The notes beneath the pieces were generated by a model that was not told the DNA's origin, made no database searches, and saw only the letters and a program-made list of their open reading frames with translations. The translations under genes were made by a program, and so were the position numbers. A DNA stretch of 64,000 nucleotides. It comes from Prauserella aidingensis. Lineage in GTDB: Bacteria > Actinomycetota > Actinomycetes > Mycobacteriales > Pseudonocardiaceae. Positions 36,125-52,012 of this stretch are shown here, one piece after another. Within the stretch, counting starts at the first letter, position 1. Every line of letters begins with the position of its first letter. The stretch is from NCBI RefSeq assembly GCF_024171865.1, contig NZ_JAMTCN010000012.1, positions 1-64,000 of the forward strand, given 5' to 3'.

Positions 36125-36138
36125 AGATCGCCTCCGTT

Positions 36139-36153: not shown

Positions 36154-36169
36154 GGTTGTCCGTATTCGG

Positions 36170-36198
36170 AGTCTGGGGGAACTCGGTGGGCGCGTCAA
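36170..36198 (-). promoter_or_regulatory. Probable promoter of the CoA-transferase/lyase operon
   Basis: TTGACG (36198-36193), 17-base spacer, CAGACT (36175-36170) on the minus strand. The operator at 36139-36153 would lie around +10 to +25, a classic repression position. Confidence 0.5.
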
Positions 36199-36212
36199 GA
36201 AGGCAGGCGGGT

Positions 36213-37022: not shown

Positions 37023-37071
37023 CTCGACCTCCTCGACCGATTCTCGTTCCGGCGCACGGTAGCAGCCACTC

Positions 37072-37086
37072 GTCCGCTGTTCGGAC
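37072..37086. promoter_or_regulatory. IclR-type operator GTCCG-CTGTT-CGGAC before the regulator gene
   Basis: Perfect 5-base arms, 5-base spacer, 50 bases upstream of the preferred regulator start. The wider non-coding region 37023-37296 also has a lone GCGGAC half-site near 37178 but no gene. Confidence 0.6.
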
Positions 37087-37296
37087 ATGCAGGTAGCGGT
37101 GACGAATCGGATCTGAACTGCGACTTCTCGGTCCCACCGCGAAACCGGGCAAGGGATTTCCCGTCAGTCGACCGTACAGCGGACAGCTGCGACCTCGAGC
37201 ACCCCGGCACCGCTGCCACGCCGAGGCGCATTCGTGCTGATCACGGGAACGATTGACGATCCCACTCCGCGGGCCCCGGACTGTGCAGCCCAAGCC

Positions 37297-37325
37297 TTGA
37301 CAATGCCGCACCCGGGAGCAAAAGT
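37297..37325 (+). promoter_or_regulatory. Probable promoter of the VOC-hydrolase-monooxygenase operon
   Basis: TTGACA (37297-37302), 17-base spacer and a weak AAAAGT -10 (37320-37325). The strongest dyad of the region follows directly, where it would block transcription start. Confidence 0.45.
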
Positions 37326-37330
37326 GACCT

Positions 37331-37351
37331 AGTGTCCGTTGAGCGGACACT
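37331..37351. promoter_or_regulatory. IclR-type operator AGTGTCCG-TTGAG-CGGACACT
   Basis: Perfect 8-base arms with a 5-base spacer, 34 bases before the VOC gene and immediately after its predicted -10 box. It is the longest of the three GTCCG-N5-CGGAC dyads. Confidence 0.7.
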
Positions 37352-37384
37352 CGTCCGACGAAGTGCGACAAAGGAGCCGTCACC

Positions 37385-37951
37385 ATGACCCCGGCCGTTT
37401 CCGAGCGCACCGGCAAGCCCGACCACCACTCGCTGCCGGCGCGCCTGCATCACAACGCGTTCGTGACCGACGACCAGGAAGCCACGCGAGCCTTCTACGA
37501 GGACCTGATCGGCCTGCCCCTGATCGCCACGTGGACCGAGGTCGAGGACCTCTTCGGTAAGGAGCGCACCTACTGCCACACCTTCTACGGACTCGGCGAC
37601 GACAGCGCGCTGGCGTTCTTCCAGTTCGCCGACCCCGAGGACCAGAAGGAATTCGGCCCGAAGATGCCGAAGTCGCCGTTCGTCCACATCGCGCTGAAGG
37701 TGTCCGAAGGTGTCCAGCAGGCCATCGAGACCCGGCTCTCGGCCGAAGGGTGGAACCCGGACGAGACGTACGTGCTCGACCACGGCTACTGCCGGTCCCT
37801 CTACACCCGCGACCCCAACGGACTGCTGCTCGAGTTCACCGTCGACTCGGCCAATATGGACGAACTGAACAGCATCCGGCTCCGCACCGCGCACGAGGAC
37901 CTGAAGCGGTGGCTGAGCGGTGACCACACCCCGAACAACGACGTGCGCTGA
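37385..37951 (+). CDS. VOC-superfamily protein (glyoxalase/extradiol dioxygenase fold)
   Basis: A 188-residue vicinal-oxygen-chelate protein with paired beta-alpha-beta-beta-beta modules. The first begins RLHHNAFVTDDQEATRAFYEDLIGLPLI, a typical metal-ligand His position; the second has PFVHIALKVSE and ends DPNGLLLEFTVD with the ligand Glu. ATG 37385 follows AAAGGAG. First gene of a three-gene operon with a hydrolase and a flavin monooxygenase, so it may act as a ring-cleaving dioxygenase, isomerase or lyase on an aromatic or dicarbonyl intermediate. The exact reaction is unknown. Confidence 0.85.
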   Translation: MTPAVSERTGKPDHHSLPARLHHNAFVTDDQEATRAFYEDLIGLPLIATWTEVEDLFGKERTYCHTFYGLGDDSALAFFQFADPEDQKEFGPKMPKSPFVHIALKVSEGVQQAIETRLSAEGWNPDETYVLDHGYCRSLYTRDPNGLLLEFTVDSANMDELNSIRLRTAHEDLKRWLSGDHTPNNDVR

Positions 37952-37968
37952 CCCGCTCCGCCGTCACA

Positions 37969-38679
37969 GTGCCTGCCACCACCCCGCACCCGCCCGGAGC
38001 CGTCCTGCTGGTACACGGTGCCCACCACGGCGCATGGTGCTGGCGCCGGGTCTCCGACGGCCTCGCCTCCCGCGGAGTGCGGGGTGAGGCGCTGGAGTTG
38101 CCGCTGACCTCGTACGCCGACGACGTGGCGGCGGTCCGCTCGGCCGTCGACCGGCTGCGCCGCAGCGGACCGCTCGTCGTCGTCGCCCACAGCTACAGCG
38201 GCGTCGTCGTCGCCGACGCGGCGCACGGAGCGTCGCGGCTCGTCTTCGTCGCAGCACGACTGCCCCTGCCCGGCGAGTCGCAGACCGCGCTCACTCCGAG
38301 CTGGCACGGCGAGGGAATGCGCGAGGCCGTCACGGTCGGCGACGACGGCTGGGTCCACCCCACGCCCGCCGCCCGCGACGCCTTCTACCACGATTGCCCG
38401 GACGAGGTCGCCACGGACGCCGTGTCCCGGCTCCGCCCGATGCGGAGCGCGGTCCCCGCCGAACCGCTCGCCGAACCGGCCTGGATCACCACCCCGACGG
38501 CCTACGTCGTGTGCCGCCGGGACCGGGTAGTCCGCGTCGACCGGCAGCGGGAGCGCGCAGCCAGGGCCGGCGAACAGTACGAGCTCGACTGCGGCCATTC
38601 CCCGTTCCTCGCCGTTCCCGACGAGCTCGCCACCCTGCTGACCGCCCAGGAACGCAGGACGCGGGCCGCTACGACGTGA
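37969..38679 (+). CDS. Alpha/beta hydrolase
   Basis: A 236-residue alpha/beta-fold hydrolase, similar in layout to small esterases of the salicylate-methylesterase/hydroxynitrile-lyase type. VLLVHGAHHGAWCW forms the oxyanion region, VVAHSYSGVVV carries the nucleophilic Ser, CRRDRVV the acid region and CGHSPFLAVP the catalytic His. GTG 37969 begins 17 bases after the VOC stop. In the operon it probably hydrolyses an ester or a ring-cleavage product. Substrate unknown. Confidence 0.85.
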   Translation: MPATTPHPPGAVLLVHGAHHGAWCWRRVSDGLASRGVRGEALELPLTSYADDVAAVRSAVDRLRRSGPLVVVAHSYSGVVVADAAHGASRLVFVAARLPLPGESQTALTPSWHGEGMREAVTVGDDGWVHPTPAARDAFYHDCPDEVATDAVSRLRPMRSAVPAEPLAEPAWITTPTAYVVCRRDRVVRVDRQRERAARAGEQYELDCGHSPFLAVPDELATLLTAQERRTRAATT

Positions 38680-38718
38680 CATCTTCCCAGTGTCGTGAAG
38701 AGAAAGGTCGTGAGAAGA

Positions 38719-40350
38719 ATGGACACGCCTCCCCTGTCCGAATCGCCGCAGGTGCTGATCGTCGGGGCCGGCCCGACCGGACTGATCCTGGCGCACGAAC
38801 TGCTGCGCAGGCGGATCCCCGTCCGGATCGTGGAGAAGCGCAGAGGACCGTCGCACACCACCCGGGCGATGACGGTGCACGCCCGGTCGATGGAAATGTT
38901 CGAACACCTCGGGGTCGCCCACCGGCTCGAAGAGGTGTGCCTGGAATGCCCGGGAAACATCTACCATTTCCCGCATCTGCCGGAGGACCGGCAACCGCGC
39001 ACCGACTACCGGAGCCTGCCGACCCGGTTCCCATTCTACTACAAGATCAACCAGAACGATTTCGAACAGGTGCTGCGCGAGCACCTGTACACGACGTACT
39101 CGATGGTGCCCGAGTACCGCACCGAGGTCACGCGCGTCGACGCCTCCGACGACGAGGTGACGGCCGAGTTCGCGCTGCCGGACGGCACGACGGAGACGCA
39201 GACCTTTCCGTGGGTCGTCGGCTGCGACGGGGTGCGCAGTTTCGTGCGGCAGGCCGAGGGAATCGACTTCGTCGGCGAGCGGGTCGCGGCGATGGCGATG
39301 ATGGACGTCGAGTTGAGCAACGTGACGTTCGACGACCGGTGGATGAACTACTACTTCACCAGGGATCTGTTCATGAACTGCACCAAGCTTCCCGGGAAGT
39401 ACTGGCGCATCTACATGAGCGAACCCACCGAGGAATACGTCTACGCCGACGACAAACGACAGGCGTTCCAGGAGGTTGCCGACCGGATCGGGATCGGCTT
39501 CACCGTCGGTGAACCGGTGTGGGCGACCTCGTGGGAGATCCTCAACAACATCGCCGAGCGCTATCGCAACGGCAGGCTGCTGATCTGCGGGGACGCCTCG
39601 CACGTGCATTCGCCGTCCGGCGGCCAGGGCATGAACGGGTGCATGCAGGACGCGTTCAACCTGGGCTGGAAGCTCGCGGCCGTCCTGCAGGGCGACGCCG
39701 ACGAGGCGATCCTGGACACCTACGAGCAGGAGCGCAAACCGATCGGTGAGCAGGTGAGCCAGGGCGCGCTCGCCACCCATGAGATCGTGATGGGGTTCGG
39801 GGTCGATCCCGAGGAGCGGTGGGAACTCACGCAGGCCGACGGCTGGGAGCACAACACGATCCGGCTGGTCTCGGGACTCGCGCACACCTATCGCGACGTC
39901 GTGCGACTCCCCGCGAACCTCACCGAGGTCGGAGGGCCGCGCGCCGGCGACCGGGCGCCCGACGCCACGCTCACGACCGAACCGGCCAAGCGGGTGTACG
40001 ACGTGTGCCGCCGCCCGCAGTTCACGTTGCTGATCGTGCCGGGCGGCGATCCCACTGCCGCGGTCGAGCAGGGCGGGCGCCTGCGGGACGAGCTGGACGC
40101 GTTGTTCCCCGGGTACGTCCATTCCCACCTGATCGGCGAATGCAGCGACGAGGAGTTCGACTTCGACCACCGCACCCCGGACGAGACCGGCGAGATCTCC
40201 GAACGGTACGACGTGGACGGTCGCGGTCGATTCGTGCTGATCCGGCCCGACCTGTACCTCGGACTGTCGTGCCTGCCCGAGGAGGGCGACCGGATCACCG
40301 AGTACGTGAGCCAGTGGCTGACACCCGCGCGCACCCTCACGCCCGCGTGA
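38719..40350 (+). CDS. Class A FAD-dependent monooxygenase (aromatic hydroxylase family)
   Basis: A 543-residue flavoprotein hydroxylase of the PheA/MhpA/PgaE type using FAD, NAD(P)H and O2. It has the N-terminal dinucleotide motif VLIVGAGPTGLILAHELLRR, the GCDGVRSFVR (DG) motif, and the second FAD motif LLICGDASHVHSPSGGQGMN. The thioredoxin-like C-terminal domain is present (RPQFTLLIVPGG). The start is uncertain: ATG 38719 gives the usual short N-terminus, while GTG 38710 and GTG 38695 are in frame and AGAAAGG lies between. Last gene of the IclR-controlled operon. Hydroxylation of an aromatic acid is likely, but a polyketide-type substrate cannot be excluded. Confidence 0.88.
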   Translation: MDTPPLSESPQVLIVGAGPTGLILAHELLRRRIPVRIVEKRRGPSHTTRAMTVHARSMEMFEHLGVAHRLEEVCLECPGNIYHFPHLPEDRQPRTDYRSLPTRFPFYYKINQNDFEQVLREHLYTTYSMVPEYRTEVTRVDASDDEVTAEFALPDGTTETQTFPWVVGCDGVRSFVRQAEGIDFVGERVAAMAMMDVELSNVTFDDRWMNYYFTRDLFMNCTKLPGKYWRIYMSEPTEEYVYADDKRQAFQEVADRIGIGFTVGEPVWATSWEILNNIAERYRNGRLLICGDASHVHSPSGGQGMNGCMQDAFNLGWKLAAVLQGDADEAILDTYEQERKPIGEQVSQGALATHEIVMGFGVDPEERWELTQADGWEHNTIRLVSGLAHTYRDVVRLPANLTEVGGPRAGDRAPDATLTTEPAKRVYDVCRRPQFTLLIVPGGDPTAAVEQGGRLRDELDALFPGYVHSHLIGECSDEEFDFDHRTPDETGEISERYDVDGRGRFVLIRPDLYLGLSCLPEEGDRITEYVSQWLTPARTLTPA

Positions 40351-40403
40351 CGACCGGCCACGGCGAGCCACGCCGCACCGACGACGTGCTCGCCCCACGC
40401 CGG

Positions 40404-40471
40404 GCACGGTCCGCCGTCGGGGAGGGCGCCCGGTGACGTCGACCGGCCGCAGGCCCGACGGCGGACCGTGC
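40404..40471. terminator. Long inverted repeat between convergent operons
   Basis: Perfect 18-base arms, GCACGGTCCGCCGTCGGG (40404-40421) and its complement (40454-40471), with a 32-base loop, in the 121-base gap between the monooxygenase and the convergent membrane-protein gene. It ends exactly at the base before the latter's stop codon. Bidirectional terminator and left boundary of the glycan-like island. Confidence 0.7.
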
Positions 40472-41209
40472 TCAGCGGCGGACCTGCTCGACCCCCAGTG
40501 CCCGGTCCACCCACCGACCGACGGGGAGGGCGGCGACGACGGCGGCCAGCGCGACGTGGACGACCATGAACACCACCGCGGTGGCGACACTCGGCACGCC
40601 CGTGAACACGATGATGTGCGAGGCCCACGGCAGGTCCGGCGGCCGCGAACCCGCGGCCCACACGTCGTTGAGCGCCCAGAACGTCAGGTCGTTGAGTCCC
40701 GACACGACGACCAGGATCGCCGCGACACCCGTCTTGAGGACGTTGGCGGTCCTGGCCCCGCCCAGCCGGTAGGCCAACAGCATCAGCAGCACGATGAACG
40801 TCGTGATGAACAGCTCGAACTGGTACACCGGTTCGAACGCACCGTCCTGATCGGCATTGCGCCCGAACTCCTGGATGCGCATGACCATCTCGGTGTCGAT
40901 GTAGGCCATGTAGCCGATCACGCCGAGCAACAGCAGCCCCGGAGCCACCCGCCACTTCGGCAGCAGCGCCACGGCGACGACGGCGAACGCGAACGGGCTC
41001 AGCTTGAAGGCCCATTCGGCGAGGTTGTCGAGCGTCTGGTCGGGCGGCAGCACCACCATGATCAGCAGTGCGAGTACGGCCGCGGGCACCGTGGGCACCA
41101 CCCACAGCCAGCCCCGCGCTCGATACAACGCGGCCACCCAGCCCCGGCCGCCGTCGTCGCTCCTGCGGCCCGCAGCGGACGGCCCGGATCCCGGCATCGT
41201 CGCGGTCAT
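40472..41209 (-). CDS. Polytopic membrane protein of unknown function
   Basis: A 245-residue protein with about six hydrophobic segments (for example VVPTVPAAVLALLIMVVL, FAFAVVAVALLP, ELFITTFIVLLMLLAYRL, and a C-terminal VVFMVVHVALAAVVAALP). A polar loop containing YIDTEMVMRIQEFGRN lies between helices 3 and 4. ATG 41209 overlaps the carbamoyltransferase stop as ATGA, so the two are coupled. I do not recognise the family. Coupling to NodU/CmcH-type carbamoyltransferases suggests a membrane partner or acceptor-handling protein. Confidence 0.75.
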   Translation of the reverse strand: MTATMPGSGPSAAGRRSDDGGRGWVAALYRARGWLWVVPTVPAAVLALLIMVVLPPDQTLDNLAEWAFKLSPFAFAVVAVALLPKWRVAPGLLLLGVIGYMAYIDTEMVMRIQEFGRNADQDGAFEPVYQFELFITTFIVLLMLLAYRLGGARTANVLKTGVAAILVVVSGLNDLTFWALNDVWAAGSRPPDLPWASHIIVFTGVPSVATAVVFMVVHVALAAVVAALPVGRWVDRALGVEQVRR

Positions 41210-43023
41210 GCGTCGTCGTCCTCCATCCGCGGCTTCTCCACCCAGAACGGGCCGAGTGCGAGCGCGTCCACATCGGTCTTCAGATAGCACGCGACGGCAT
41301 CCGCCGGGCTCATGACGATCGGTTCCTCGTTGTCGTTGAACGAGGTGTTGACCACCATCGGGATTCCGGTCAGCCGTTCGAAGTGCTGGATCATGCGATA
41401 GTAGAGGGGATTGTCCTCCTCCGAGACGGTCTGCACCCGTGCGGTCCCGTCGACGTGCGTGATCGCGGGCACGACGTCCCGCTGGTGTTCCAGCACGTCG
41501 AACACCAGCAGCATCACCGGCGACGGATACCCGCTCGCGAAGAACTCCCCGGCCCGTTCGGCGAGACACGACGGCGCGAACGGGCGGAACGCCTCCCGGT
41601 GCTTGACCTTCTCGTTCATCCGGGTCTTCGACTCGGGATCGCGCGGGTCGGCCACGAGCGAACGGTTGCCGAGCGCGCGCGGGCCACACTCCATCCGGCC
41701 CTGGAACCAGCCGATGATGAGCCCGTCGGCGATCCGCTGGGCGGCGTGGGCGGCGATGTCGTCGTGCCGCTCGTAGTCCAGCCCCGCGTCCTTGAGCGCC
41801 AGTTCCATGTCCGTCTCGGTGTATTCCGGGCCGGTGTAGGTGAATCCGCTGCGCGGCCGCGGGCGGCGGTAGGTGCCCACGCTGACGTCCAGGGCCGCAC
41901 CGACCGCACAGCCGTCGTCGGCCGCCGCCGGCTGGGCGAAGAAGTCCTCGAACGGCGTCTCCAGCAGGATGCGGCCGTTCATCACGCTGTTGAGTGCCAC
42001 GCCGCCCGCCACGCTCAGCCGCGTCGACCCGGTTTCGGCCTGCAGCCATCGGGCGAGGTGCAGTCCGGCCTCCTCGAGGGTCACCTGCAGCGCGTAGGCC
42101 ACGTCGCAGTAGTGCTGGGGCACCGGATTGTCGGCCGTCACGCGGGTCTTCGGCCGTGCCGGACCGAACAGGTCGTGGAACTTCTGCGACATCACGTGTT
42201 TGCCGGTGCGGTGGTGCTCGAACCAGCTCAGGTCGAGTTCGAACCCGCCGTCCGGGTCGAGGTGCACGAGTTCGCGGAACGCGTCGACGTAGGTGTCCCT
42301 GCCCAGCGGGGCCAGGCCCATGACCTTGCCCTCGTCTCGGGTCGGGTAGAACCCGAGGTACCCGGTGACGCCGGCGTACATCGCGCCCAGCGAATGGGGG
42401 AACTTGATGCGCCGCAGTTCCCTGATCGTGTCGCCGCGACCGTGGGCCAGCAGGGTGGAGGCTCCGTCGCTGCCGATGCCGTCGAGCGTGAGCACGGCCG
42501 ATTCGTCCCACGGGCAGATGTAGTAGGCGCTTCCCGCGTGGGCGCGGTGGTGGTCCACCAGGTGCACCCGGAAGTGCACGGGTCCCGTATGGCCGACGGC
42601 CTCCTTGATGTCGCGCTCGAGCGTGTAGGTGCGCTTGATGTGTGCCAGCACGGCACCGCCGACGTGGTAGTCGTCGACGCCCGTGCCGCCCCCGCTGCGG
42701 AGTGTCTTCAGCATCCCGGCGGCCCGGCCGCCCGACGCGCCGTCCGGGTTGCGGAAGACGTCCAGCGTTCCCGGGAAGTACCGCGCGAACACCTTCGCCG
42801 CGTGGATCGCCTCCTTCCAACGCTGCCAGTAGTACGCGACGTGGTCGACCTCGGCGAGGGTGATGCCCGCCTGGTCGAGGCAGAACTTGATCGCGTTCGC
42901 GGGCAGCCCGCCGTCGTGCTTGACGCGGGTGAACCGCTCCTCCTCGGCGAAGGCGACGATCGTGCCGTCGTGGACCAGAGCCGCCGCCGAGTCGTGAACC
43001 CTGCTGATACCGAGTACGTACAT
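41206..43023 (-). CDS. NodU/CmcH-family carbamoyltransferase
   Basis: A 605-residue O-carbamoyltransferase using carbamoyl phosphate and ATP to carbamoylate a hydroxyl on a sugar or small molecule (NodU, CmcH and TobZ are known members). The N-terminal Kae1-like domain has RVHDSAAALVHDGTIVAFAEEERFTR, VDHHRAHAGSAYY, LTLDGIGSDGAST and AGGVALNSVMNG. The C-terminal part has GRMECGPRALGNRSL and VVNTSFNDNEEPIV. ATG 43023 follows GGAG at 7 bases. It follows a flippase-like gene by 17 bases. Its presence marks this island as making a carbamoylated glycan or metabolite. Confidence 0.93.
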   Translation of the reverse strand: MYVLGISRVHDSAAALVHDGTIVAFAEEERFTRVKHDGGLPANAIKFCLDQAGITLAEVDHVAYYWQRWKEAIHAAKVFARYFPGTLDVFRNPDGASGGRAAGMLKTLRSGGGTGVDDYHVGGAVLAHIKRTYTLERDIKEAVGHTGPVHFRVHLVDHHRAHAGSAYYICPWDESAVLTLDGIGSDGASTLLAHGRGDTIRELRRIKFPHSLGAMYAGVTGYLGFYPTRDEGKVMGLAPLGRDTYVDAFRELVHLDPDGGFELDLSWFEHHRTGKHVMSQKFHDLFGPARPKTRVTADNPVPQHYCDVAYALQVTLEEAGLHLARWLQAETGSTRLSVAGGVALNSVMNGRILLETPFEDFFAQPAAADDGCAVGAALDVSVGTYRRPRPRSGFTYTGPEYTETDMELALKDAGLDYERHDDIAAHAAQRIADGLIIGWFQGRMECGPRALGNRSLVADPRDPESKTRMNEKVKHREAFRPFAPSCLAERAGEFFASGYPSPVMLLVFDVLEHQRDVVPAITHVDGTARVQTVSEEDNPLYYRMIQHFERLTGIPMVVNTSFNDNEEPIVMSPADAVACYLKTDVDALALGPFWVEKPRMEDDDA

Positions 43024-43040
43024 GTTCTCGCTCCGTGGTG

Positions 43041-44339
43041 TTACGTGGTGGATGACAGACCGGCCCGCGACGGCCGGGTGGGCAGGGGCCCGGAATGACG
43101 TCTGCGCACCATGTGGTGCAACGCGGCCGCCTCGACCGCCAGCGCGACCACGACGGCGGCGAACCCGCCCGCGGCACCGAACGGCGGCACCAGGCACAGG
43201 GCACACACCGTCGTCGCCACCAGCCGCCACAGCGCTCCCCGGAAACTCACGCCCAGCAGCGGGCCCCCCGTGTTCTCGATGAGGAAGATCCCGTACATCA
43301 CCGCGACGGCGGCGACGACCTCGACGGCGGTGAGCGTCCCGAGCGCCGCCCACATGGCGAGGCCCGTGTCGGCGAGCAGCGCGTCACGGCTGACTGGGAT
43401 CGAGAGCGCGGCGGCGAACAGCACCGCGAACGCGACACCGCCCACGACGACCGCCCGCAGGATCGCCATGGCCCGCGACCGGCCCGTCACCGCGCCGCTG
43501 CCCCGCTGCCGGAGCGAGACACCGGGCTGATGGATCCGCAACTGGTAGCGCACGATCGAGCAGAACGCGCTCGCGCCGAGCATCGCGAGGTAGAAGGGGC
43601 CGCTGTCGGCCACCCGGCCCACGGCGGCGAGCACGAAGAACACGACCGCCACGGTCAGCGCGTCCAGCAGTTCCGGCACACCGAGCAGCCACGTCGTGCG
43701 ACCGTAGGCGAGCACGAGTCGGCGTCGCCGCAACGGTTCCGGCCGACTCCAGTCACGGGGCAACAGGGCGACGGCGGTCAGCGCGACGACGGCCAGTCCC
43801 GCGGGCAGTACCAGCAGCACCGTGCGAGGCGACCAGTCCGCCAGCCAGGTGGCCAGCGTCACGCCGAGTACCAGAACGGCGCCCGCCGTGAAGGCCCACG
43901 CGTCGAGGGCGGCCCGTCCGCGGAGGCGGTGCAGGCCCGAGACGGTCATCAGCATCCCGGAGCACGTGTGCCAGCAGGCCGCGGCCAGATACGGCAGCAG
44001 TGCCGACTCCGGTGCCGCCACGGCGGTCACGAGCAGCGCCGCCGCGAACACGAGAACCGGTGCGACGGCGAACCGCACTGCCAGGGCGACCACCGTCGCC
44101 CGGGTGGCGCGCACCCGCGGCGCCAGCTTCAGGGCGCTCTTCTCCGCCGCGTTGGGCAGGAACACGAGCCACGCGCACGCACCGAGGGCGTTGGCGAACG
44201 GGCCGTACGCGATCGTGCCCCACACGACCGCCAACACGACCTGCATCAGCTGCACGCTGGCGCGGAACGAGCCCCGGCCGAGGAGCAGCCGGAGCATCAT
44301 CAGCCGGCGGGGCACAGCGCCCACCGCGGCACCCGTCAC
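43041..44339 (-). CDS. Polysaccharide/lipid flippase-like membrane protein
   Basis: A 432-residue, largely hydrophobic protein with about twelve helices and short Arg-rich loops. The layout (helices in pairs, central loop about residue 210 with RRRRLVLAYGRTTWLLGVPELLDAL) resembles MOP-superfamily exporters (Wzx/MurJ-like), but no diagnostic motif is obvious. GTG 44339 overlaps the ATP-grasp stop as GTGA. A role in moving a lipid-linked product across the membrane is inferred from the adjacent glycosyltransferase. Other polytopic families are possible. Confidence 0.7.
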   Translation of the reverse strand: MTGAAVGAVPRRLMMLRLLLGRGSFRASVQLMQVVLAVVWGTIAYGPFANALGACAWLVFLPNAAEKSALKLAPRVRATRATVVALAVRFAVAPVLVFAAALLVTAVAAPESALLPYLAAACWHTCSGMLMTVSGLHRLRGRAALDAWAFTAGAVLVLGVTLATWLADWSPRTVLLVLPAGLAVVALTAVALLPRDWSRPEPLRRRRLVLAYGRTTWLLGVPELLDALTVAVVFFVLAAVGRVADSGPFYLAMLGASAFCSIVRYQLRIHQPGVSLRQRGSGAVTGRSRAMAILRAVVVGGVAFAVLFAAALSIPVSRDALLADTGLAMWAALGTLTAVEVVAAVAVMYGIFLIENTGGPLLGVSFRGALWRLVATTVCALCLVPPFGAAGGFAAVVVALAVEAAALHHMVRRRHSGPLPTRPSRAGLSSTT

Positions 44340-45553
44340 GGCCGCGGCACCGCCTGTGCGACGTCGTCGAGGCGGAACTTGAGCGCTCCCCGCACCGCCT
44401 CGGCCGCGTCGCGCAACTCGTCCATCGTGGACGCCTGCAGAACGGCGTAGCCCAGCTTGTAGCCCGCTTGTTCGTAGGCGCGCACGAACGTACCCTCCTC
44501 CGCGAACAGCCGGAGGTCGACCACCGCCGGGTGGGCGCGGACCTCGTCGAGGCCCGTCACCTCGGCGAGCCTGCCCGCCCGGTCTGCGCCGAACACCTGC
44601 ACCATCGTCGGCACGGGGTCGCGCGGCGTCAGCACCGGCTCCTCGCCCACGGCCGTGGCCATGGTCGCCGCCATGATGTCGACGCCGTAGCACGACTCGA
44701 CGAGCTCGGCGAGGCCGTTTCCGCCCATCCGTGCGCCCATTTCGACCAGGTACAACGTGCCGTCGCGCCCCAGCACCGCGTCGAGCGTCAACGGGCCGTC
44801 GGGGTACTCGATCCGCTCGCAGATCGCTTCGAGCATGCGCACGAGTTCGGCATCCACTTCGGACGAAAGCTCCGCCGGTACGAGGTGGGCCGTCGTCACG
44901 AAGTACGGCGGCGGCGTGATGGTCCGCTCGGTGACGGCATGGAACGCGACCCGGCTCCGCCGCATGAGGACCTCGACGGTCAGATGTTCGCCCGTGAGGT
45001 ACTCCTCGACGACGAGCTTGCCCTCGGGAGAGAACGCCACCGCCTCGGCGAACGCCGACCGCAACGACCCCGGTCCGGCACACGCGACGACGCCCCTGCT
45101 TCCCGACGAGTCGACCGGTTTGACCAGCGCGGGAAACCGCAGTTCCCGCGCACGCTTGACGAGGTCGTCGTCCGGCGCGCCACTGACCGCGCGGTAGCCC
45201 GGCAGCCCCAGCTCCACGCACAGCTCCCGGAAGGCCGATTTGTCGACCGAGGCGCGCATCGCCAGATCCGGCAGCAGCGCGGGAAGGTTCCAGTGCCGTG
45301 TCAGCCAGGCGAGCGCGGGGAGTCCGACGTCGCTGGCCGGACACAGCACACCCACGATGTCGTCGCGCCCGGCGAGCGTGCTCGCGATCCGTTCCGGTGC
45401 GCGCACGCTCAGCTGGACGAACTCGTCGGCATGCAGCACACCCGGCGCGGTGGGCCGGATGTCGACGCAGATCGTCCGGTAGCCCAGTGTTCTCGCCCGC
45501 TGGTACACGCCGACCGAACCGTCGGCACCGCCCAGCACCACCAGTGTCGTCAC
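44336..45553 (-). CDS. ATP-grasp carboxylate-amine ligase
   Basis: A 405-residue ATP-grasp enzyme. A pre-ATP-grasp Rossmann-like domain (VVLGGADGSVGVYQRARTLG) is followed by FPALVKPVDSSGSRGV (ATP-binding Lys and small-residue loop), VVEEYLTGEHLTVEVL, and the metal site DAVLGRDGTLYLVEMGARMGGNG. Such enzymes join a carboxylate to an amine through an acyl phosphate. GTG 45553 overlaps the glycosyltransferase stop, and the stop overlaps the flippase-like gene. An amino acid or amine is probably ligated to the island's product. Partner substrates unknown. Confidence 0.9.
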   Translation of the reverse strand: MTTLVVLGGADGSVGVYQRARTLGYRTICVDIRPTAPGVLHADEFVQLSVRAPERIASTLAGRDDIVGVLCPASDVGLPALAWLTRHWNLPALLPDLAMRASVDKSAFRELCVELGLPGYRAVSGAPDDDLVKRARELRFPALVKPVDSSGSRGVVACAGPGSLRSAFAEAVAFSPEGKLVVEEYLTGEHLTVEVLMRRSRVAFHAVTERTITPPPYFVTTAHLVPAELSSEVDAELVRMLEAICERIEYPDGPLTLDAVLGRDGTLYLVEMGARMGGNGLAELVESCYGVDIMAATMATAVGEEPVLTPRDPVPTMVQVFGADRAGRLAEVTGLDEVRAHPAVVDLRLFAEEGTFVRAYEQAGYKLGYAVLQASTMDELRDAAEAVRGALKFRLDDVAQAVPRP

Positions 45554-46554
45554 GACGCCACCTCCGCCCGTCGCGGCCGCGGGGCCGTCGGCCGTTCGTC
45601 GAGCAGGAGGTCGGCGGGATCCACCCGGTCGCGCAGCGACGTCTCCCGGATGTAGAACCGGCGAGGCCGCGGCTGACCGGCTCCGACGGTGACCAGGTAG
45701 CGGACGCCCACCGCCAGCACCGCTGTGATCACCGCGAGCACCGCGAACAACGCGGTCGCGGTCGCTGCGACGCCGAGCAGCCCGGTGGCGGCACCGATGG
45801 CCAGCACGCCACACAACGCCGCGGTGCCCAGTGCGAGCCCGGCGGCGACTCCCGGCAACCTGCGGGTGAAACCGACGAACAGTTCCACCGCATGCGAGGC
45901 GAGGAACCGGAACCCGACCTTGGACTCGCCGCGCTCCCGTGCGCGGTGGCCGACGGCAACGGTCGTGTACCTGCTGGTCAGTTGCGGCACGGTCGCCATG
46001 AAGTACGGCGTGCCGATCTCCAGGTCGACCACGCGGCGTGCGAGGTCCGTCCGGACCAGGCGGAACGCGGTCGCGCCGCGGGGTATCTCGACCTTCAGCA
46101 CACGCTGGGCGAGGTAGTGGAACACCGCGGTGCCCCACCGCCGGAGCAGCGGGTCCTGGCGGTTGGTCCGCACCCCGAACACGGCGTCGTAGCCTTGCCG
46201 GGCCTCGGCGATCAGCACCCTTGCCTCGGCCGCGGGAAACTGCTGGTCCGCGTCGACGTGCAGCACCCACGGCCGTTCGGCGTAGCGATAGCCGGCGGAA
46301 AACGCGGCCTCGAAACCGAAGTTCCGCGTGAAGGAAATGAAGTCCACCCGCGGGTCTTGTTCCGCGAGCCCGCGAATGATATTCAGCGTGCCGTCCGTGC
46401 TCCCGTCGTCGACATAGATCACTTCGAGGTCGAGGTCCCCGAGCTCGTCGACGATTTCCTCGTAGGAGGCACGCACATTGTCCACTTCGTTATAACACGG
46501 AATCACCACCGTGACGCTCGTGATGTCCGCGCACTCTGCGTCCGGCTCCATCAC
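45550..46554 (-). CDS. Family 2 glycosyltransferase, DPM1/ArnC-like with C-terminal membrane helices
   Basis: A 334-residue GT-A glycosyltransferase. The N-terminal catalytic domain has VTVVIPCYNEVDNVRASY, VIYVDDGSTDGTL, FISFTRNFGFEAAFSAG and the metal-binding HVDADQQFP. Two C-terminal helices (residues about 240-295) anchor it in the membrane, as in polyprenyl-phosphate sugar transferases. The start is GTG 46554 or ATG 46551; neither has a clear ribosome-binding site. It is the first gene of the minus-strand operon of the island and probably makes or uses a polyprenyl-phosphate sugar. Confidence 0.9.
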   Translation of the reverse strand: MMEPDAECADITSVTVVIPCYNEVDNVRASYEEIVDELGDLDLEVIYVDDGSTDGTLNIIRGLAEQDPRVDFISFTRNFGFEAAFSAGYRYAERPWVLHVDADQQFPAAEARVLIAEARQGYDAVFGVRTNRQDPLLRRWGTAVFHYLAQRVLKVEIPRGATAFRLVRTDLARRVVDLEIGTPYFMATVPQLTSRYTTVAVGHRARERGESKVGFRFLASHAVELFVGFTRRLPGVAAGLALGTAALCGVLAIGAATGLLGVAATATALFAVLAVITAVLAVGVRYLVTVGAGQPRPRRFYIRETSLRDRVDPADLLLDERPTAPRPRRAEVAS

Positions 46555-46676
46555 AGGTCACGCACCAGGACCGGACCGGCTTCTCGCACGAGAATCCGTC
46601 TCGGCGAATACGGCATGAATGCCCTCGCGTTTCTACTCGTCAGTAGTCTCTGCCCCCAGCAGGAACGGATCCGAGA

Positions 46677-46704
46677 GTTATATCCGACAAAATGTCCACA
46701 GCAA
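46677..46704 (-). promoter_or_regulatory. Probable promoter of the glycosyltransferase-carbamoyltransferase operon
   Basis: TTGCTG (46704-46699), 16-base spacer, TATAAC (46682-46677) on the minus strand, within a locally AT-richer part of the 269-base divergent gap. It leaves a leader of about 120 bases. Confidence 0.5.
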
Positions 46705-46773
46705 GACGGAAAGTTGGGATTGACCCGTTCGGCCGAAGTCGAAACGGGGACGCGCACGACCTTTCGGCGCAAT

Positions 46774-46799
46774 CCCGGAATTCGCGGTCCGAATCCGGG
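46774..46799. promoter_or_regulatory. Dyad in the island's divergent promoter region
   Basis: CCCGGAATTCG, five bases, CGAATCCGGG: near-perfect symmetry with one extra base, ending 24 bases before the plus-strand gene. It may be an operator or a leader hairpin. A TTCGGCCGAA palindrome lies further upstream near 46733. Confidence 0.4.
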
Positions 46800-46823
46800 C
46801 ATTCGGTGGCACACTGCCCACCC

Positions 46824-47624
46824 ATGTGGAATTCGCTGGCCTCGAGGCTGTGGCGGGCGGCCTATCTGCGTGCCGTCTCCTCGGCCTTCGCCACGGTCCC
46901 GCTCTACCGCGAGACCTGGGCGCTGCACGGCCGCACGGACCCGGTCCTCGTTCCGGACAGGACGGGAAGCAACGGCGGTGCGCTCGCCGCCGACACGGTG
47001 CAGCGCCGGTTGGTCGACACCGCACCGCTCGCGGGCGGGTCGACCGAACCCGACCCGGCACGCGGCCTCGCCGGCCTGCTCACCCACGCCACCCAGCGGC
47101 GCTCGCACCGCCTGGTGGTCGTGGTCGACGCCGCCGTCACACGCCCGCCCACCGGACTGCCCTCCGGGTCCCGTGGCTGCGTGCTGCACCCGGACGCCGC
47201 CACTCCCCTCGACGACGGGCCCGTACTGAGGGAGATCGTCGACACGCTGCGACGCGGCGAACGGGTACTGGCCGTCGGTGAGGACAAGAACCTCGACGCG
47301 CTGTCCGCGGCACTGCGCTCCGCCGAACCGCCCACCGAGCTGCCGCCGCCGGACCGGGTCCCGCACCACCGCATCGACAGCCTCACCGGCGGTCCCTTCG
47401 GCCTGCTCCACGACCCGCTGCTCGGCTACCTCGGCGTGCTCCGCGACTGCGGCCGATGGCACGTCGACTGCAGGCACGTCTACGTGCGCGAGACGACGGG
47501 CGGGCTCGCGTTCACCGTGCTCGACCGCACGTCGCCGCGGCTGGTCGACGTACTCGTCGGCGGCGGCGTGCCGGGAGAGGTGCAGGCCTGTCCCCGTCAT
47601 GGCTCTCCCGTGATCGAGACATGA
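46824..47624 (+). CDS. Unrecognised protein, first gene of the acyltransferase operon
   Basis: A 266-residue soluble protein. The N-terminus (WRAAYLRAVSSAFATVPLYRETWALHGR) recalls the start of PaaK/CapK-type adenylating enzymes, but no AMP-binding motif follows. The C-terminus has CGRWHVDCRHVYVRET, LAFTVLDR and CPRHGSPVI, with Cys and His residues that could bind a metal. ATG 46824 is the last start before the conserved-looking region; longer in-frame starts cover the dyad at 46774-46799. ATGA overlap with the next gene shows coupling to the four acyltransferase-like genes. I cannot assign a function. Confidence 0.7.
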   Translation: MWNSLASRLWRAAYLRAVSSAFATVPLYRETWALHGRTDPVLVPDRTGSNGGALAADTVQRRLVDTAPLAGGSTEPDPARGLAGLLTHATQRRSHRLVVVVDAAVTRPPTGLPSGSRGCVLHPDAATPLDDGPVLREIVDTLRRGERVLAVGEDKNLDALSAALRSAEPPTELPPPDRVPHHRIDSLTGGPFGLLHDPLLGYLGVLRDCGRWHVDCRHVYVRETTGGLAFTVLDRTSPRLVDVLVGGGVPGEVQACPRHGSPVIET

Positions 47625-48676
47625 CGGTCCGCTCCGACACCGTTGTCGACGCCCGTGTCTGTGATCCTCGCGTCGACGGCGCACCCGACGGGTGGTCCGA
47701 GTTCGCCTGCACCGCCGGTCCGCACGCCGTGTGGGAACCGGAGCTGCTGCGCATCGAAGGCTGGTTGACGCGCAATCCCCCGCTACTGGTCACCGTGCAC
47801 GACACCGACGGCATCGTGGTGGCGCTGTCGGCACTGGTGTGCCGGCCGACCCGCACTCCTCGTTACGCACCCCGGCGCGCCCGCCGCGGTCCGATGTGGG
47901 CGGAGGTCGCCCAGCCGTGGCTCAGCGGCCTGCCCGGAGTCGTCCGGCGGCCCGGGGTGTCCGGCGACCACCTGCGCGTGGCCGTGCGCTCGGCCGAGCG
48001 CGCCCTCGCGCGCCGCCTCGGTGCCGGTCTGGCCGGGCTGTTCTACCGCGGGGTCGGATCCGACCTGCTGCCCGAGCTCATCGGCCGCGGCCGCATCCAC
48101 CGGCGCACGGATCCGTCCGCGGTCCTCGACAACACTTTCTCCTCGGTCGACGAGTGGCTCGCGTCGCTGAGCAAGAGCAGGCGCGCGGGGCTGCGCAGGC
48201 AGCACCGGCGCGCCGAGGCCGACCCGGCTCTCGTCGTCCGCGGCGGACCAGGCCGCACCGACATCGACGCGGCCGCCGTGGCGGGCCTGCTCAACGACCA
48301 TCGCGCGCGGTTCCCGACCCCGGCAGGCGACACGCGCTCACCCATCGCGGCACCGTATGTGGAGGCGTTCGTGCGCAGACCCGACGTGCACACACTCACC
48401 TATCACGACACCGACGGACGACTCCTCGCCCTCAACACATTGCTCGATCACCACGACGTCGTCGTCAAGCAGCACTGGGCGGCGCTGCCGCCCGAGGAGG
48501 GCGGCAGACAGGGTCTGTACTTCGACGCCTACGTCCGTGCCGTGCGCTGGTGCATCGCCCACGGCAGGCCGCGGATCTCCTCGGGCCGGGGCAAACTCGA
48601 CGTCAAGACGTCGCTGGGGTTCACGCCGCGGGACGTCCACGGCGTCATCGCGCCGAGGCCGGTGATGGGCCGGTGA
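47621..48676 (+). CDS. GNAT-fold acyltransferase paralogue 1 (PF13480/FemAB-like)
   Basis: A 351-residue protein of the BioF2/CelD-type double-GNAT group (Acetyltransf_6), related in fold to FemABX aminoacyltransferases. The N-terminal half has WLTRNPPLLVTVHDTDGIVV; the middle has VDEWLASLSKSRRAGLRRQHRR; the C-terminal GNAT has LTYHDTDGRLLALNT, KQHWAALPPEEGG and the signature LYFDAYVRAVRW ... SSGRGKLDVKTSLGF. ATG 47621 and the stop both overlap neighbours by four bases. It probably transfers an acyl or aminoacyl group onto the island's glycan or lipid. The donor is unknown. Confidence 0.8.
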   Translation: MTVRSDTVVDARVCDPRVDGAPDGWSEFACTAGPHAVWEPELLRIEGWLTRNPPLLVTVHDTDGIVVALSALVCRPTRTPRYAPRRARRGPMWAEVAQPWLSGLPGVVRRPGVSGDHLRVAVRSAERALARRLGAGLAGLFYRGVGSDLLPELIGRGRIHRRTDPSAVLDNTFSSVDEWLASLSKSRRAGLRRQHRRAEADPALVVRGGPGRTDIDAAAVAGLLNDHRARFPTPAGDTRSPIAAPYVEAFVRRPDVHTLTYHDTDGRLLALNTLLDHHDVVVKQHWAALPPEEGGRQGLYFDAYVRAVRWCIAHGRPRISSGRGKLDVKTSLGFTPRDVHGVIAPRPVMGR

Positions 48677-49821
48677 ACGTCGACATCGTGGACCCACGGT
48701 TGGATCCCGAACCGCCGGGCTGGGCGGATTTCGCGGGCGCACTGCGCCTGCACCCGGTGTGGCGCTACCCGCTCCTCCGGCTCGAGGCGTGGACCGCCCG
48801 CAACCCGCCCGTCCTCGCGGTGGTGCGCCAGGACGGACGCGTCGTCGGGGGCTTGCAGGTCATGATCTGCCGCAGTTGGCGCACGAGCCGCTTCGGACCG
48901 CCGCCGCGGCGGCTCGGTCGCTGGCGGCCGCGGTGGGCGGAGGTCTACCTCCCCCTGCACAGCGGTTATCCCGCCGCCGTCTTCCGCTCCGGTGTCGACC
49001 TGCGGGCCGCGATCCGCGAGTTCGAACGGGCGTTGGCGGACAGGATCGGCCCGGGTCTGCTGGGCGTCCTCTACCGGGCCATGACCGCCGACCTGGCCGA
49101 CGCGATGTCGGGGCCGGGGCGGGCGCGCCGGGAGATCGACCCTGCCGCGGTGCTCCGGCCGCCCGCCACGGTCGACGAGTGGTGGGCCGGCCTCGACGAC
49201 GAGGTCCGGAGCACCATCGACGCGGTCGAGGCGGACCCGCGCGTGTGCACCGACATCGGAGCGGGACGCCGCGATCTGGACGCCACCGAACTCGCCGCGC
49301 TGCTCAACGCACACCGGGCGCGGCAGGACGCCCGGGCGTGGGCGGGCGGTCAGCGTTCCCGCTTCGCGGGCCTGCACATGGACACCCGCAGCCCCGTCTC
49401 CCCCGCGTACCTGGACGCGCTGCTGCGCAGGCCGAACGTCCTCACCCGCACCTACCGCACGCCCTCCGGCAGGCTGCTCGGGTTCGCCACGATGATCGAC
49501 GAGCGGCACCCGGCCGCGTTCCACCACTGGGCGGCCGTGTCCCGGGCCGACGGCGGCAGGCCCGGCCTCCACCGGCATGCCTACGCACAGGCCGTCACAC
49601 GGGCGATCGAGCGTGGCGTGTCCGAACTGACCGCGGGCAGAGCGATGCTCGACGAGAAGGCGGCGCTCGGCTTCCGCGGCACGCGCGCACTGCACACCGT
49701 CGCGGCGCCGCGGCCGCTGCTGAGCGGCGGGCCGGTTCTCGCCGACCGGCTGCAACGAACCGGCACTCCGGCCGGCGACGCGACGGGCCACCACCGGAAA
49801 CGCATGGGGAGCACGACATGA
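48673..49821 (+). CDS. GNAT-fold acyltransferase paralogue 2 (divergent)
   Basis: A 382-residue paralogue beginning VNVDIVDPRLDPEPPGWADF. It shares the DPRxDPEPxxW opening with paralogues 3 and 4 and the RNPPVLAVVRQDGRVVG segment, but the central Ser-Arg-Arg region is altered (VDEWWAGLDDEVRSTIDAV). The C-terminal signature is degenerate (LHRHAYAQAV ... TAGRAMLDEKAALGF), retaining HHWAAVSRADGG and the G-x4-D-x-K spacing. GTG 48673 overlaps paralogue 1 as GTGA. It carries a longer C-terminal tail than the others. Specificity, or even activity, may differ. Confidence 0.78.
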   Translation: MNVDIVDPRLDPEPPGWADFAGALRLHPVWRYPLLRLEAWTARNPPVLAVVRQDGRVVGGLQVMICRSWRTSRFGPPPRRLGRWRPRWAEVYLPLHSGYPAAVFRSGVDLRAAIREFERALADRIGPGLLGVLYRAMTADLADAMSGPGRARREIDPAAVLRPPATVDEWWAGLDDEVRSTIDAVEADPRVCTDIGAGRRDLDATELAALLNAHRARQDARAWAGGQRSRFAGLHMDTRSPVSPAYLDALLRRPNVLTRTYRTPSGRLLGFATMIDERHPAAFHHWAAVSRADGGRPGLHRHAYAQAVTRAIERGVSELTAGRAMLDEKAALGFRGTRALHTVAAPRPLLSGGPVLADRLQRTGTPAGDATGHHRKRMGSTT

Positions 49822-50861
49822 CGGTGCACATCGACGTCCTGGATCCGCGCCGCGACCCGGAACCGGCCGACTGGGCTCGATTTGCCGCCGACCGGCACCT
49901 TCCGGCACCGTGGTCGTACCGGATGCTGCAGCTCGAGACCGCGTCGTCCCGCTGCCCGAACCTGCTGGTCGTCGCCCGTGACGCGGGTGAGCCGGTCGCC
50001 GCGCTGTCGGTGACCGTGGCCCGCCCCGGGGACCCGCACCGCCGCAGGCCGGTCGGCGGCATCGCGCGGTTCGCGCCCCGCCTCGCCGAGGTGCACCAAC
50101 CGTGGATGCCCGGCACGTCCGGCCGCGTGTTCGCGCCCGAGCTCGACACCGCGGCACGGCGCGCGATCACGCGCGCGGCCGAACGGGCCGTCGTGTCGTT
50201 CCTCGGCCCCGGCTGCGGCGGCGTGATCCACCGGTACGTCCGGGACGCCGAGCTCCCCGACGTCGGCGGCCGGGGCAGAGTGGTGCGCGACGCCGTGCCC
50301 ACGACCCTGTTGCGGAACGGGTTCGCCGATGTCGACGAGTGGGTCACCTCGCTCGCGCGCAGCAGGCGCCACAGCATCCGCGGCCAGCGGCGCAAGATTG
50401 CCGCCGATCCGTCGTTGACCATCCGATGTGGACGTGCGAGGGACGACGTCGCCGGGGCCGAACTGGCCACGCTCCTGCATACGCACCGGGCGAAGTTCGG
50501 CAGAGTGCCGCTCGACCTCCGTGGCGCCGTGACGGCCGAGTACCTGCACGAACTGGTGCGCAGATCCGACGTGGCCACGCTGACGTACCGGGACACCGAC
50601 TCCGGGCGGCTGCTCGCGTTCACCACCGTGCTCGACCACGTGGTGACGCCGCTGCACCAGCACTGGGCGGCCGTGCCGCCGGACAAGGGAGGCAAGCGGC
50701 ACCTGTACTTCGACGCCTACGCCAGGGTGGTCGGCTTCATGATCGACAACGACAGGCCGTCGATCTCGTCGGGACGCGGCATGCAGGACGTGAAGGGGTC
50801 GCTCGGGTTCGCGCCGCAACCGTTGCAGACGGTCATGGTCCCGCGGCCGGTGTGCCGATGA
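49818..50861 (+). CDS. GNAT-fold acyltransferase paralogue 3
   Basis: A 347-residue paralogue (start MTVHIDVLDPRRDPEPADW) most similar to paralogue 1: VDEWVTSLARSRRHSIRGQRRK in the middle, LTYRDTDSGRLLAFTT, HQHWAAVPPDKGG, then LYFDAYARVVGF and SSGRGMQDVKGSLGF. ATGA overlaps link it to the genes on both sides. Same predicted role as paralogue 1, with a presumably different donor or acceptor site. Confidence 0.8.
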   Translation: MTVHIDVLDPRRDPEPADWARFAADRHLPAPWSYRMLQLETASSRCPNLLVVARDAGEPVAALSVTVARPGDPHRRRPVGGIARFAPRLAEVHQPWMPGTSGRVFAPELDTAARRAITRAAERAVVSFLGPGCGGVIHRYVRDAELPDVGGRGRVVRDAVPTTLLRNGFADVDEWVTSLARSRRHSIRGQRRKIAADPSLTIRCGRARDDVAGAELATLLHTHRAKFGRVPLDLRGAVTAEYLHELVRRSDVATLTYRDTDSGRLLAFTTVLDHVVTPLHQHWAAVPPDKGGKRHLYFDAYARVVGFMIDNDRPSISSGRGMQDVKGSLGFAPQPLQTVMVPRPVCR

Positions 50862-51934
50862 CGGGGCCGTCGACCGAATACCGGGACCGCGCCCGCCGCC
50901 TGGCGGACCATGCGGCGACGAGCGCCGACCACGAGGTGCTCGACCCGCGGTTCGACCCCGAACCCGCCTACTGGCCACGTCTCCGGGCCGACGCAGGGCT
51001 GTACGCCGACTGGTCGTGGGAGGCGATGACGGCGCAGGCGTGGGCGGCCCGCACACCCCAGTACGTCACGGTGTTCCACGGCGACGACGGCCCGTGCGGC
51101 GTCGTGTGGGCCGCGTGGGTCGGGCCGCCGACCCGGCGTCACCGTTTCGCGCGCACGACACGCGGCGGACGTGTCGGAGGGCTCGACGTCCGGTCGCCGA
51201 ACAACGCCTCCGCGGCGGGCTGGTGGTTCGCCGACGGCGCGGCCCAGCGGCTGGTCACCGATTACGCCCCCGCGATACGCGGCACCCTCGGTACGGGGGC
51301 CCGGCTGCTGCTGGCCCGGCAGCTCGGTGACGCCGACGCCGCTGCCGTGCGTGCACCGCTGCGCATCGTGCGCGCCACCGAGCCGATCAGCGTGCTCGAC
51401 ACCGCCGGGTTCGAGTCCGTGGAGCAGTGGCGGTCCGGCCTGCGCGCGAGCCGGCGGCGCAGCCTGGAGCAGATCCGGCGGGCCGTCGCCGACGATCCCC
51501 GCCTGGAGGTTCGGGTCGGGTCGATGGCCGACGCCGATCCCGGCGAGGTCGCCGCGCTGTTGCGGTACAACGCGGAGAAACACCACGACGTACCGATCGT
51601 GCCGCTGCCGATGTTCACCGGCTACCTCGAGGCACTGTTGCGCAGACCGGACGTCATCGGGGTGCGCTACACCGACCCGGTCTCCGGTGCGCTCCGCGCG
51701 CTGGCGCTCGTCTTCGACCATCCGGAGTGGCCGGTGATGCGCTCGTGGTCGGTGCTGCCGCTCCACCGCGGAGGACGGCGGAACGTCTACTTCGACATGT
51801 ACGTCCAGGGTGTGCGCTTCGCGGTGACCTCCGGGAAACGGGGCCTCGTGCTGGGCAAGAAGATGGTGGACCTCAAACACACACTGGGCGCCAGGACGGT
51901 GTCCCAGCACGCCGCCCTCGTCCCGCTGCGGTGA
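50858..51934 (+). CDS. GNAT-fold acyltransferase paralogue 4
   Basis: A 358-residue paralogue with an N-terminal extension of about 25 residues before VLDPRFDPEPAYW. Central VEQWRSGLRASRRRSLEQIRR matches the Ser-Arg-Arg region. The QHWA motif is replaced by MRSWSVLPLHRGG, and the C-terminal signature reads VYFDMYVQGVRF ... LVLGKKMVDLKHTLGA. It is the most divergent of the set at these sites. ATG 50858 overlaps paralogue 3. Last gene of the operon, followed by a hairpin. Confidence 0.78.
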   Translation: MTGPSTEYRDRARRLADHAATSADHEVLDPRFDPEPAYWPRLRADAGLYADWSWEAMTAQAWAARTPQYVTVFHGDDGPCGVVWAAWVGPPTRRHRFARTTRGGRVGGLDVRSPNNASAAGWWFADGAAQRLVTDYAPAIRGTLGTGARLLLARQLGDADAAAVRAPLRIVRATEPISVLDTAGFESVEQWRSGLRASRRRSLEQIRRAVADDPRLEVRVGSMADADPGEVAALLRYNAEKHHDVPIVPLPMFTGYLEALLRRPDVIGVRYTDPVSGALRALALVFDHPEWPVMRSWSVLPLHRGGRRNVYFDMYVQGVRFAVTSGKRGLVLGKKMVDLKHTLGARTVSQHAALVPLR

Positions 51935-51983
51935 TCCACCGAACACGGGAACGGCGATGCGGCCGACCGTGGCGAGAGCCTGC

Positions 51984-52012
51984 CGGCGGGGGCACCGAGC
52001 ACGGCCCCGCCG
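51984..52012. terminator. Hairpin between the acyltransferase operon and acetate kinase
   Basis: CGGCGGGG (51984-51991) pairs with CCCCGCCG (52005-52012) across 13 bases, between convergent genes. Right boundary of the island. Confidence 0.45.

Follow-up and report, generated by a model that had tools for sequence, protein, structure and literature searches.

Organization of the locus

The window, a stretch of 64,000 nucleotides from a contig of Prauserella aidingensis, belongs to a genome of 5.65 Mb in 80 contigs, whose closest named kin in the genome scan were Prauserella salsuginis, P. halophila, and P. alba. Between 40472 and 51934 it carries ten genes, whose products include a glycosyltransferase of family 2 (GT2), an ATP-grasp ligase, a carbamoyltransferase, and four FemAB-like transferases, and whose conservation and probable function are described here. 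All ten genes are open and are arranged in two divergent blocks, as an earlier note on this DNA had proposed. The minus-strand genes are named A1–A5, counted from the end near 40.4 kb towards the divergent promoter, and those on the plus strand B1–B5. Gene calls were made with a home-made codon score for high-GC DNA, so that the starts are approximate, and transmembrane (TM) segments were counted with a hydropathy script, which gives approximate numbers. The features are as follows.

40404..40471, terminator-like hairpin with 18 outer pairs in the gap of a convergent gene pair; not conserved as a boundary
40472..41209, minus strand, A1, 245 residues, about six TM segments, without known family
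41206..43023, minus strand, A2, predicted O-carbamoyltransferase of the NodU/TobZ/NovN type
43041..44339, minus strand, A3, polytopic, remotely akin to the Wzx type (Polysacc_synt_3); its GTG start at 44339 overlaps the A4 stop
44336..45553, minus strand, A4, predicted ATP-grasp carboxylate-amine ligase with a LAL_C2 domain
45550..46554, minus strand, A5, predicted GT2 of the ArnC/sll0501/PgfS type, two C-terminal TM segments
46555..46823, divergent intergenic region, 269 bases
46824..47624, plus strand, B1, orphan protein of 266 residues, possible metal site
47621..48676, plus strand, B2, FemAB-like / Acetyltransf_6 transferase, orthologue group 1 of 4
48673..49821, plus strand, B3, FemAB-like transferase via homology to B2/B4, orthologue group 2
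49818..50861, plus strand, B4, FemAB-like transferase, orthologue group 3
50858..51934, plus strand, B5, FemAB-like transferase via homology to B2/B4, orthologue group 4
51984..52012, weak hairpin in the gap of a convergent gene pair, not a boundary

Seven of the eight internal junctions (A1/A2, A3/A4, A4/A5, B1/B2, B2/B3, B3/B4, and B4/B5) are four-base overlaps of the ATGA/GTGA kind, and the sole exception is A2/A3, with a 17-base gap if A3 starts at the GTG at 44339. The distance between the starts of A5 and B1, when recomputed, was again 269 bases; on both points the earlier note was accurate. In the 19 relatives of type I (defined below) that were examined, the conserved N-termini of A5 and B1 lie 274–307 bases apart. 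Within the divergent region, short blocks common to eight aligned sequences were seen by eye around GAGAGTTATAT and ATTGnnCCGTTCGGCCGA, and possibly reflect a common regulator of these promoter regions. Scans for promoter and terminator consensus sequences yielded no more hits than shuffled sequences did, and Rfam gave no match at the gathering threshold between 36 and 56 kb.

Conservation of the ten genes as a unit

A pattern scan of 84,980 species genomes with an alignment of the four B paralogues yielded 44 named loci, which is a lower bound and covers close and middle-distance relatives only. The genes in these loci were counted by a hidden Markov model search of stop-to-stop frames, with models built from the same loci. 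In 21 of the 44, from Prauserella, Amycolatopsis, Goodfellowiella, and Saccharomonospora, the order A1-A2-A3-A4-A5 / B1-B and the strands are identical (type I), with four B genes in 13 loci and three in 8. The earlier note had said that its proposal would fall if the set were absent from other genomes as a unit; these 21 loci carry the same families in the same order.

Another 18 of the 44 loci, from Nonomuraea, Actinomadura, Actinokineospora, and Labedaea, lack A2, and all 18 contain a short-chain dehydrogenase/reductase (SDR) of the epimerase/dehydratase family (type II). These SDRs form a group by linkage of BLAST hits and may comprise more than one orthologue. Their best PDB matches were UDP-glucose 4-epimerases, with MoeE5 and UDP-glucuronate decarboxylases further down, and the best NCBIfam model, a 4,6-dehydratase, was far below its cut-off. 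Of the 18 type II loci, 15 also contain an orphan gene, u1, which was seen in none of type I; u1 (for example L066:12213-13082 and L072:6223-6942) gave no Pfam match.

Four further loci with A2 deviate from type I. A3 is missing from L049, L053 carries an additional A4 and B, and in L056 two B genes are accompanied by an SDR. The fourth, L075 from Kribbella turkmenica, is reordered; its A2 is split into three frame pieces, its B1 is also in pieces, and A5 was not found. This copy is either decaying or badly read. L048 holds only B. Over the 44 loci, some of which are cut by contig ends, A1 and A4 were each present in 43, B1 in 42, and A3 and A5 each in 41. The A1 tree parts types I and II cleanly (100/100), and the A4 tree needs two changes; in it the extra copy of L053, on a long branch, falls wrongly among type II. 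Both types occur in Actinokineospora spheciospongiae, type I as L049 and type II as L067.

Because the loci had been fetched with B, A1 was searched independently, and A1 (E 1e-5) and B (E 1e-15) were found in the same 22 of 150 genomes of the family. A search of 396 genomes of the phylum with B at E 1e-10 gave 11 matches, namely the source genome and ten weak ones (best 1.5e-14). The ten genes are under purifying selection, with ratios of nonsynonymous to synonymous change (pN/pS) of 0.06–0.29 against P. salsuginis, some genes being compared in part; against A. antarctica, the values were 0.22–0.55. These comparisons indicate that the ten genes are a conserved unit.

Recognised enzyme families: A2, A4, and A5

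For A2, both carbamoyltransferase domains exceeded their Pfam cut-offs (PF02543, 1.1e-58; PF16861, 9.2e-71), and the best solved relative in the PDB was the novobiocin enzyme NovN, over a long alignment (7.2e-98). This domain membership confirms A2 as a NodU/TobZ-type O-carbamoyltransferase, with its activity predicted from that family. A2 differs from NodU, TobZ, and NovN in that it scored 154.5 of 1000 bits against the NCBIfam NodU model and is absent from the 18 type II loci. A second locus of the carbamoyltransferase family lies on contig C14 of the same genome (21383-22327; L002/L003).

For A4, the ATP-grasp domain (PF13535) and the LAL_C2 domain (PF18603, 1.7e-17) were both over the Pfam cut-offs, and the PDB matches include the L-amino acid ligase BL00235. 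For A5, the GT2 domain was recognised (PF00535, 1.4e-30), the aspartates of the DxD motif, D101 and D103, are invariant in 21 sequences, and two C-terminal TM segments were predicted. In the PDB, residues 13-292 of A5 align with residues 27-306 of sll0501, which we take to be GtrB, and residues 8-285 align with ArnC, the membrane segments being included in both cases. The top NCBIfam models were PgfS and then ArnC, both far below cut-off. The Pfam results agree with the earlier calls of GT2, ATP-grasp, and carbamoyltransferase.

A5 and A4 form a single continuous protein of 730-744 residues in seven Amycolatopsis loci, which belong to one clade, and a fusion of 760 residues is also present in the type II locus L067. 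Thus 8 of the 43 A4-bearing loci have the fusion, with two separate origins. Because the GT2 and the ATP-grasp enzyme were fused in two separate lineages, A5 and A4 probably act in consecutive steps. A5 resembles ArnC, sll0501, and PgfS in its GT2 domain, its invariant aspartates, its C-terminal TM pair, and the length of the alignment, whereas it differs from them in these fusions and in its surroundings, since it sits beside FemAB-like and carbamoyl transferases and has no GT-C-type partner among the ten genes.

B2–B5 are four old orthologue groups of FemAB-like transferases

The earlier note had described four paralogues of the GNAT (Gcn5-related N-acetyltransferase) family. Their paralogy is borne out by pairwise identities of 28-46%, whereas the family model was reached by B2 alone: the score against Acetyltransf_6 (PF13480, cut-off 22 bits) was 28.5 for B2 and 17.6 for B4. 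FemAB_like (PF04339) was under its cut-off in B2 and B4, and B3 and B5 had no Pfam match at E 0.1. Membership in FemAB proper (PF02388) was rejected, as this model matched none of B2-B5 at E 0.1; it matched nothing else in the source genome either. Searches of the PDB with B profiles of four and of 40 sequences gave nothing usable, and a profile comparison of B with B1 reached 0.2% and was null again on repetition.

A profile of 40 B sequences matched nine distant actinobacterial proteins at 98.8%; these nine had been found with the B profile, and all exceed the FemAB_like and Acetyltransf_6 cut-offs. Together with these nine kin, the B sequences matched FemAB at 81% (E 1.2e-5), and in that alignment the invariant Lys326 of B4 coincides with the Lys in the 'FK' motif of FemAB. 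Alignment of the FemAB protein L185 with FemX (1NE9) equates this Lys with Lys305 of FemX. It is present in 40 of 40 B rows, 9 of 9 FemAB_like kin, and 14 of 15 FemAB rows, and on the alignments it is a mark of the superfamily, not of the donor. The B family is thus like FemABX, VlmA, PacB, DhpH-C, and Orf11 in its remote profile match and in this Lys; the counterpart of FemX Lys305 in DhpH-C is Lys329, and both residues are discussed in the available part of PMC12945691. B2-B5 differ from FemABX in having no PF02388 match and in being much nearer to FemAB_like/Acetyltransf_6 proteins.

In a tree of 14 type I locus copies (13 named loci and the window, loci with fewer B genes being left out), B2, B3, B4, and B5 form four clades by position, of 14 sequences each, with support of 98/90, 100/99, 98/97, and 100/100, respectively. 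This tree shows B2-B5 to be four old, position-specific orthologue groups, and because the clades are position-specific, we argue that the four genes have four distinct tasks.

A1, A3, and B1

For A1, A3, and B1 of the window, no Pfam family was over cut-off, scans of their relatives gave none usable, and profile searches of the PDB with the three alignments likewise gave nothing usable. A1 and B1 represent two orphan families that the earlier note had not named. D174, H198, and H218 of A1 are invariant in 29 aligned sequences. The family UPF0542 is not assigned to A1: it matched 9 of the 29 members (best 3e-5) and left the window protein unmatched, and the matches were taken as membrane-segment composition. 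C209, H213, C256, and H259 of B1 are invariant in 22 sequences and are a possible metal site. An adenylate-forming activity was considered for B1 but is not claimed, as the match to PaaK-type proteins was limited to 28 residues at the N-terminus (59%, E 9e-5).

A3 had been called flippase-like in the earlier note. No flippase family in Pfam matched the window protein or the 26 members of its alignment, whereas the profile of these 26 sequences matched that of 18 Polysacc_synt_3 proteins in hhalign (95.4%, E 1.8e-8, 384 columns). The control comparisons gave 0.8% against the major facilitator superfamily (MFS) and 0.6% against A1. These results support a remote relationship between A3 and Wzx-type proteins. 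On the 0.8% match, A3 was rejected as an MFS exporter.

Boundaries and neighbouring genes

The inverted repeats at 40404-40471 and 51984-52012, which had been thought to bound the island, did not hold up as its limits. The first hairpin is strong (z -7.3), and the second is short (z -2.8 alone, -0.5 in a 141-nt context). The two differ in sequence, and each sits in the gap of a convergent gene pair. An exact stem of at least 9 bp within 160 bases was found at the A1 end in 3 of 11 testable type I relatives and at the last B gene in 6 of 12, in each case with other sequences; one relative, L035, begins at A1. As the hairpins are unlike each other and the relatives have other stems or none, the repeats were rejected as ends of a mobile island.

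The extent of the island was also revised. In the nearest genome without the unit (G033), whose aligned flanks are 88-93% identical, the place of ~32.45-52.06 kb, a larger segment than had been delimited, is taken by about 2.1 kb with two genes unmatched in the window. In P. salsuginis and P. alba, A1 adjoins a homologue of 32393-33943, and therefore the genes at ~34-40.35 kb would have been gained in the window, or lost in those two species, apart from the unit. The block 33944-40471, which is absent beside the unit in both species, contains citrate-synthase-like, CoA-transferase III, IclR, glyoxalase, hydrolase, and FAD monooxygenase genes. The FAD monooxygenase had a match at E 1e-60 in one of seven genomes of the genus, its own.

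Proposed function and alternatives

The ten genes probably put a sugar on a membrane lipid, decorate it, and export the product. We give a probability of about 0.5 to the proposal that they are an old locus dedicated to making and exporting a small, decorated glycolipid or lipid-linked sugar. The lipid-linked sugar logic of the earlier note fits the alignment of A5 with sll0501 and ArnC, the relationship of A3 to Wzx, and the GT2–ATP-grasp fusions. Building on the family identities, the conserved unit, the fusions, the four old B groups, and the remote Wzx kinship, we infer the following steps. At the inner membrane face, A5 would use a nucleotide sugar to glycosylate polyprenyl phosphate, and A4 would form an amide on the same lipid-linked sugar, most simply between a carboxyl group (uronic acid) and an amino acid. 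B2-B5 would attach as many as four acyl or aminoacyl groups, either one after another or at separate positions, and A2, in type I only, would carbamoylate a hydroxyl. A3 would flip the product outward, and A1 and B1 would take part in further steps.

Several points weigh against this proposal. Pfam found no GT-C transferase, polymerase, or ligase in the ten genes and ten flanking genes, and the acceptor of A5 could be a non-lipid instead of polyprenyl phosphate. The matches of the type II SDRs allow, but do not show, a uronic acid. When compared directly with 15 FemAB (PF02388) proteins, the B profile reached only 4.8%, and as the Lys occurs in all nine FemAB_like kin, it does not demonstrate tRNA use. 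Finally, A3 gave no match to the MurJ profile (0.13%), though the positive control, Wzx-type against MurJ, gave 98.8%.

A somewhat unlikely alternative is a soluble secreted natural product, an aminoacylated and carbamoylated sugar, for which A5 would glycosylate a small acceptor, A4 and the FemAB-like enzymes would build amides, and A3 would export the product. The nearest solved carbamoyltransferases of A2 are NovN, GdmN, and TobZ, all of which act on antibiotics, and the patchy distribution (22 of 150 family genomes) also suits such a product. Furthermore, FemABX-like double-GNAT enzymes form amides in the valanimycin, pacidamycin, and dehydrophos pathways, as the accessible part of PMC12945691 describes. 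However, A5 is of the membrane-bound ArnC/sll0501 type, A3 is Wzx-like and not MFS-like, and no polyketide synthase, nonribosomal peptide synthetase, or regulator model was over the Pfam cut-off among the ten genes.

Alternatively, the locus may modify an existing envelope polymer or surface protein, with a lipid-linked sugar being flipped and then passed on by a transferase encoded elsewhere. GT2 enzymes of the A5 type serve such transfer to peptidoglycan, glycan, or protein, and the leading NCBIfam models for A5, PgfS and ArnC, are in line with it despite their sub-cut-off scores. HfsK, a FemAB-like GNAT with paralogues, takes part in holdfast polysaccharide biogenesis (PMC5362036, in part). 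We consider this unlikely, as the Pfam scan of the ten genes and ten flanking genes found no GT-C or other external transferase, and four FemAB-like enzymes with an amide ligase would exceed the needs of a plain sugar side group.

Bolder, and a long shot in our estimate, is a lipid-anchored counterpart of FemXAB outside peptidoglycan. The GT2–ATP-grasp pair would join a sugar acid to a first amino acid, the four paralogues would add residues serially from aminoacyl-tRNA, and the product would be carbamoylated (type I) and flipped. If true, the polyprenyl-linked sugar would bear a short peptide, and the product would belong to a new class of lipid-linked glycopeptide.

A cluster for a repeat-unit exopolysaccharide of the Wzx/Wzy kind is very unlikely. 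It would account for the Wzx-like A3, and FemAB-like acetyltransferases do occur in exopolysaccharide systems (HfsK; available part of PMC5362036), but a single glycosyltransferase is present, and no Wzy polymerase or initiating transferase model of Pfam or NCBIfam matched any of the ten genes, among which A1, A3, and B1 have no family. A loose gathering of unrelated genes, which the presence of several enzyme families with no described joint pathway found might suggest, is hardly credible and is refuted by the 21 of 44 loci that share families and gene order, the two fusions, the identical set of 22 genomes (of 150) for A1 and B, and purifying selection.

Relation to known systems

Glycoconjugate biosynthesis loci are already known as a kind. 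In agreement with the earlier note, no described pathway matched this set: no paper describing the ten families together was recognised in the open-access literature, subscription journals and cluster databases lying outside the search.

Moenomycin is a carbamoylated, amidated phosphoglycolipid. Its pathway is like the proposed one in the idea of a carbamoylated, amidated glycolipid, and MoeE5 is among the PDB matches of the type II SDRs. It appears to differ from the locus described here, which combines a single GT2 and an ATP-grasp ligase with four FemAB-like enzymes and a Wzx-like exporter. According to the available part of the saskemycin report (PMC12637814), that cluster has amidino- and aminotransferases, and no ATP-grasp, GNAT, or Fem term occurs there; the carbamoyl term is absent from the available part of PMC12419801. 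ATP-grasp ligases are predicted to modify surface polymers of animals (PMC2824669, in part).

HfsK of the Caulobacter holdfast is likewise a FemAB-like GNAT with paralogues, and HfsK and CC2278 did not cross-complement. It differs from B2-B5 in that it serves an exopolysaccharide system and binds cyclic di-GMP, and no tandem set of four is described in the accessible part of the paper (PMC5362036). HfsK is, within these limits, a precedent for FemAB-like GNATs in a surface polysaccharide system.

The four old, side-by-side B paralogues would make it possible to test directly whether a lipid-linked sugar is acted on serially by FemAB-like enzymes, and the natural GT2–ATP-grasp fusion offers one protein to assay. 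If the proposed biosynthesis-and-export reading is right, the 43 named loci in four actinobacterial families would represent a common, unnamed pathway for an envelope or secreted glycoconjugate, which would include the orphan families A1, B1, and u1 as well as this fusion.

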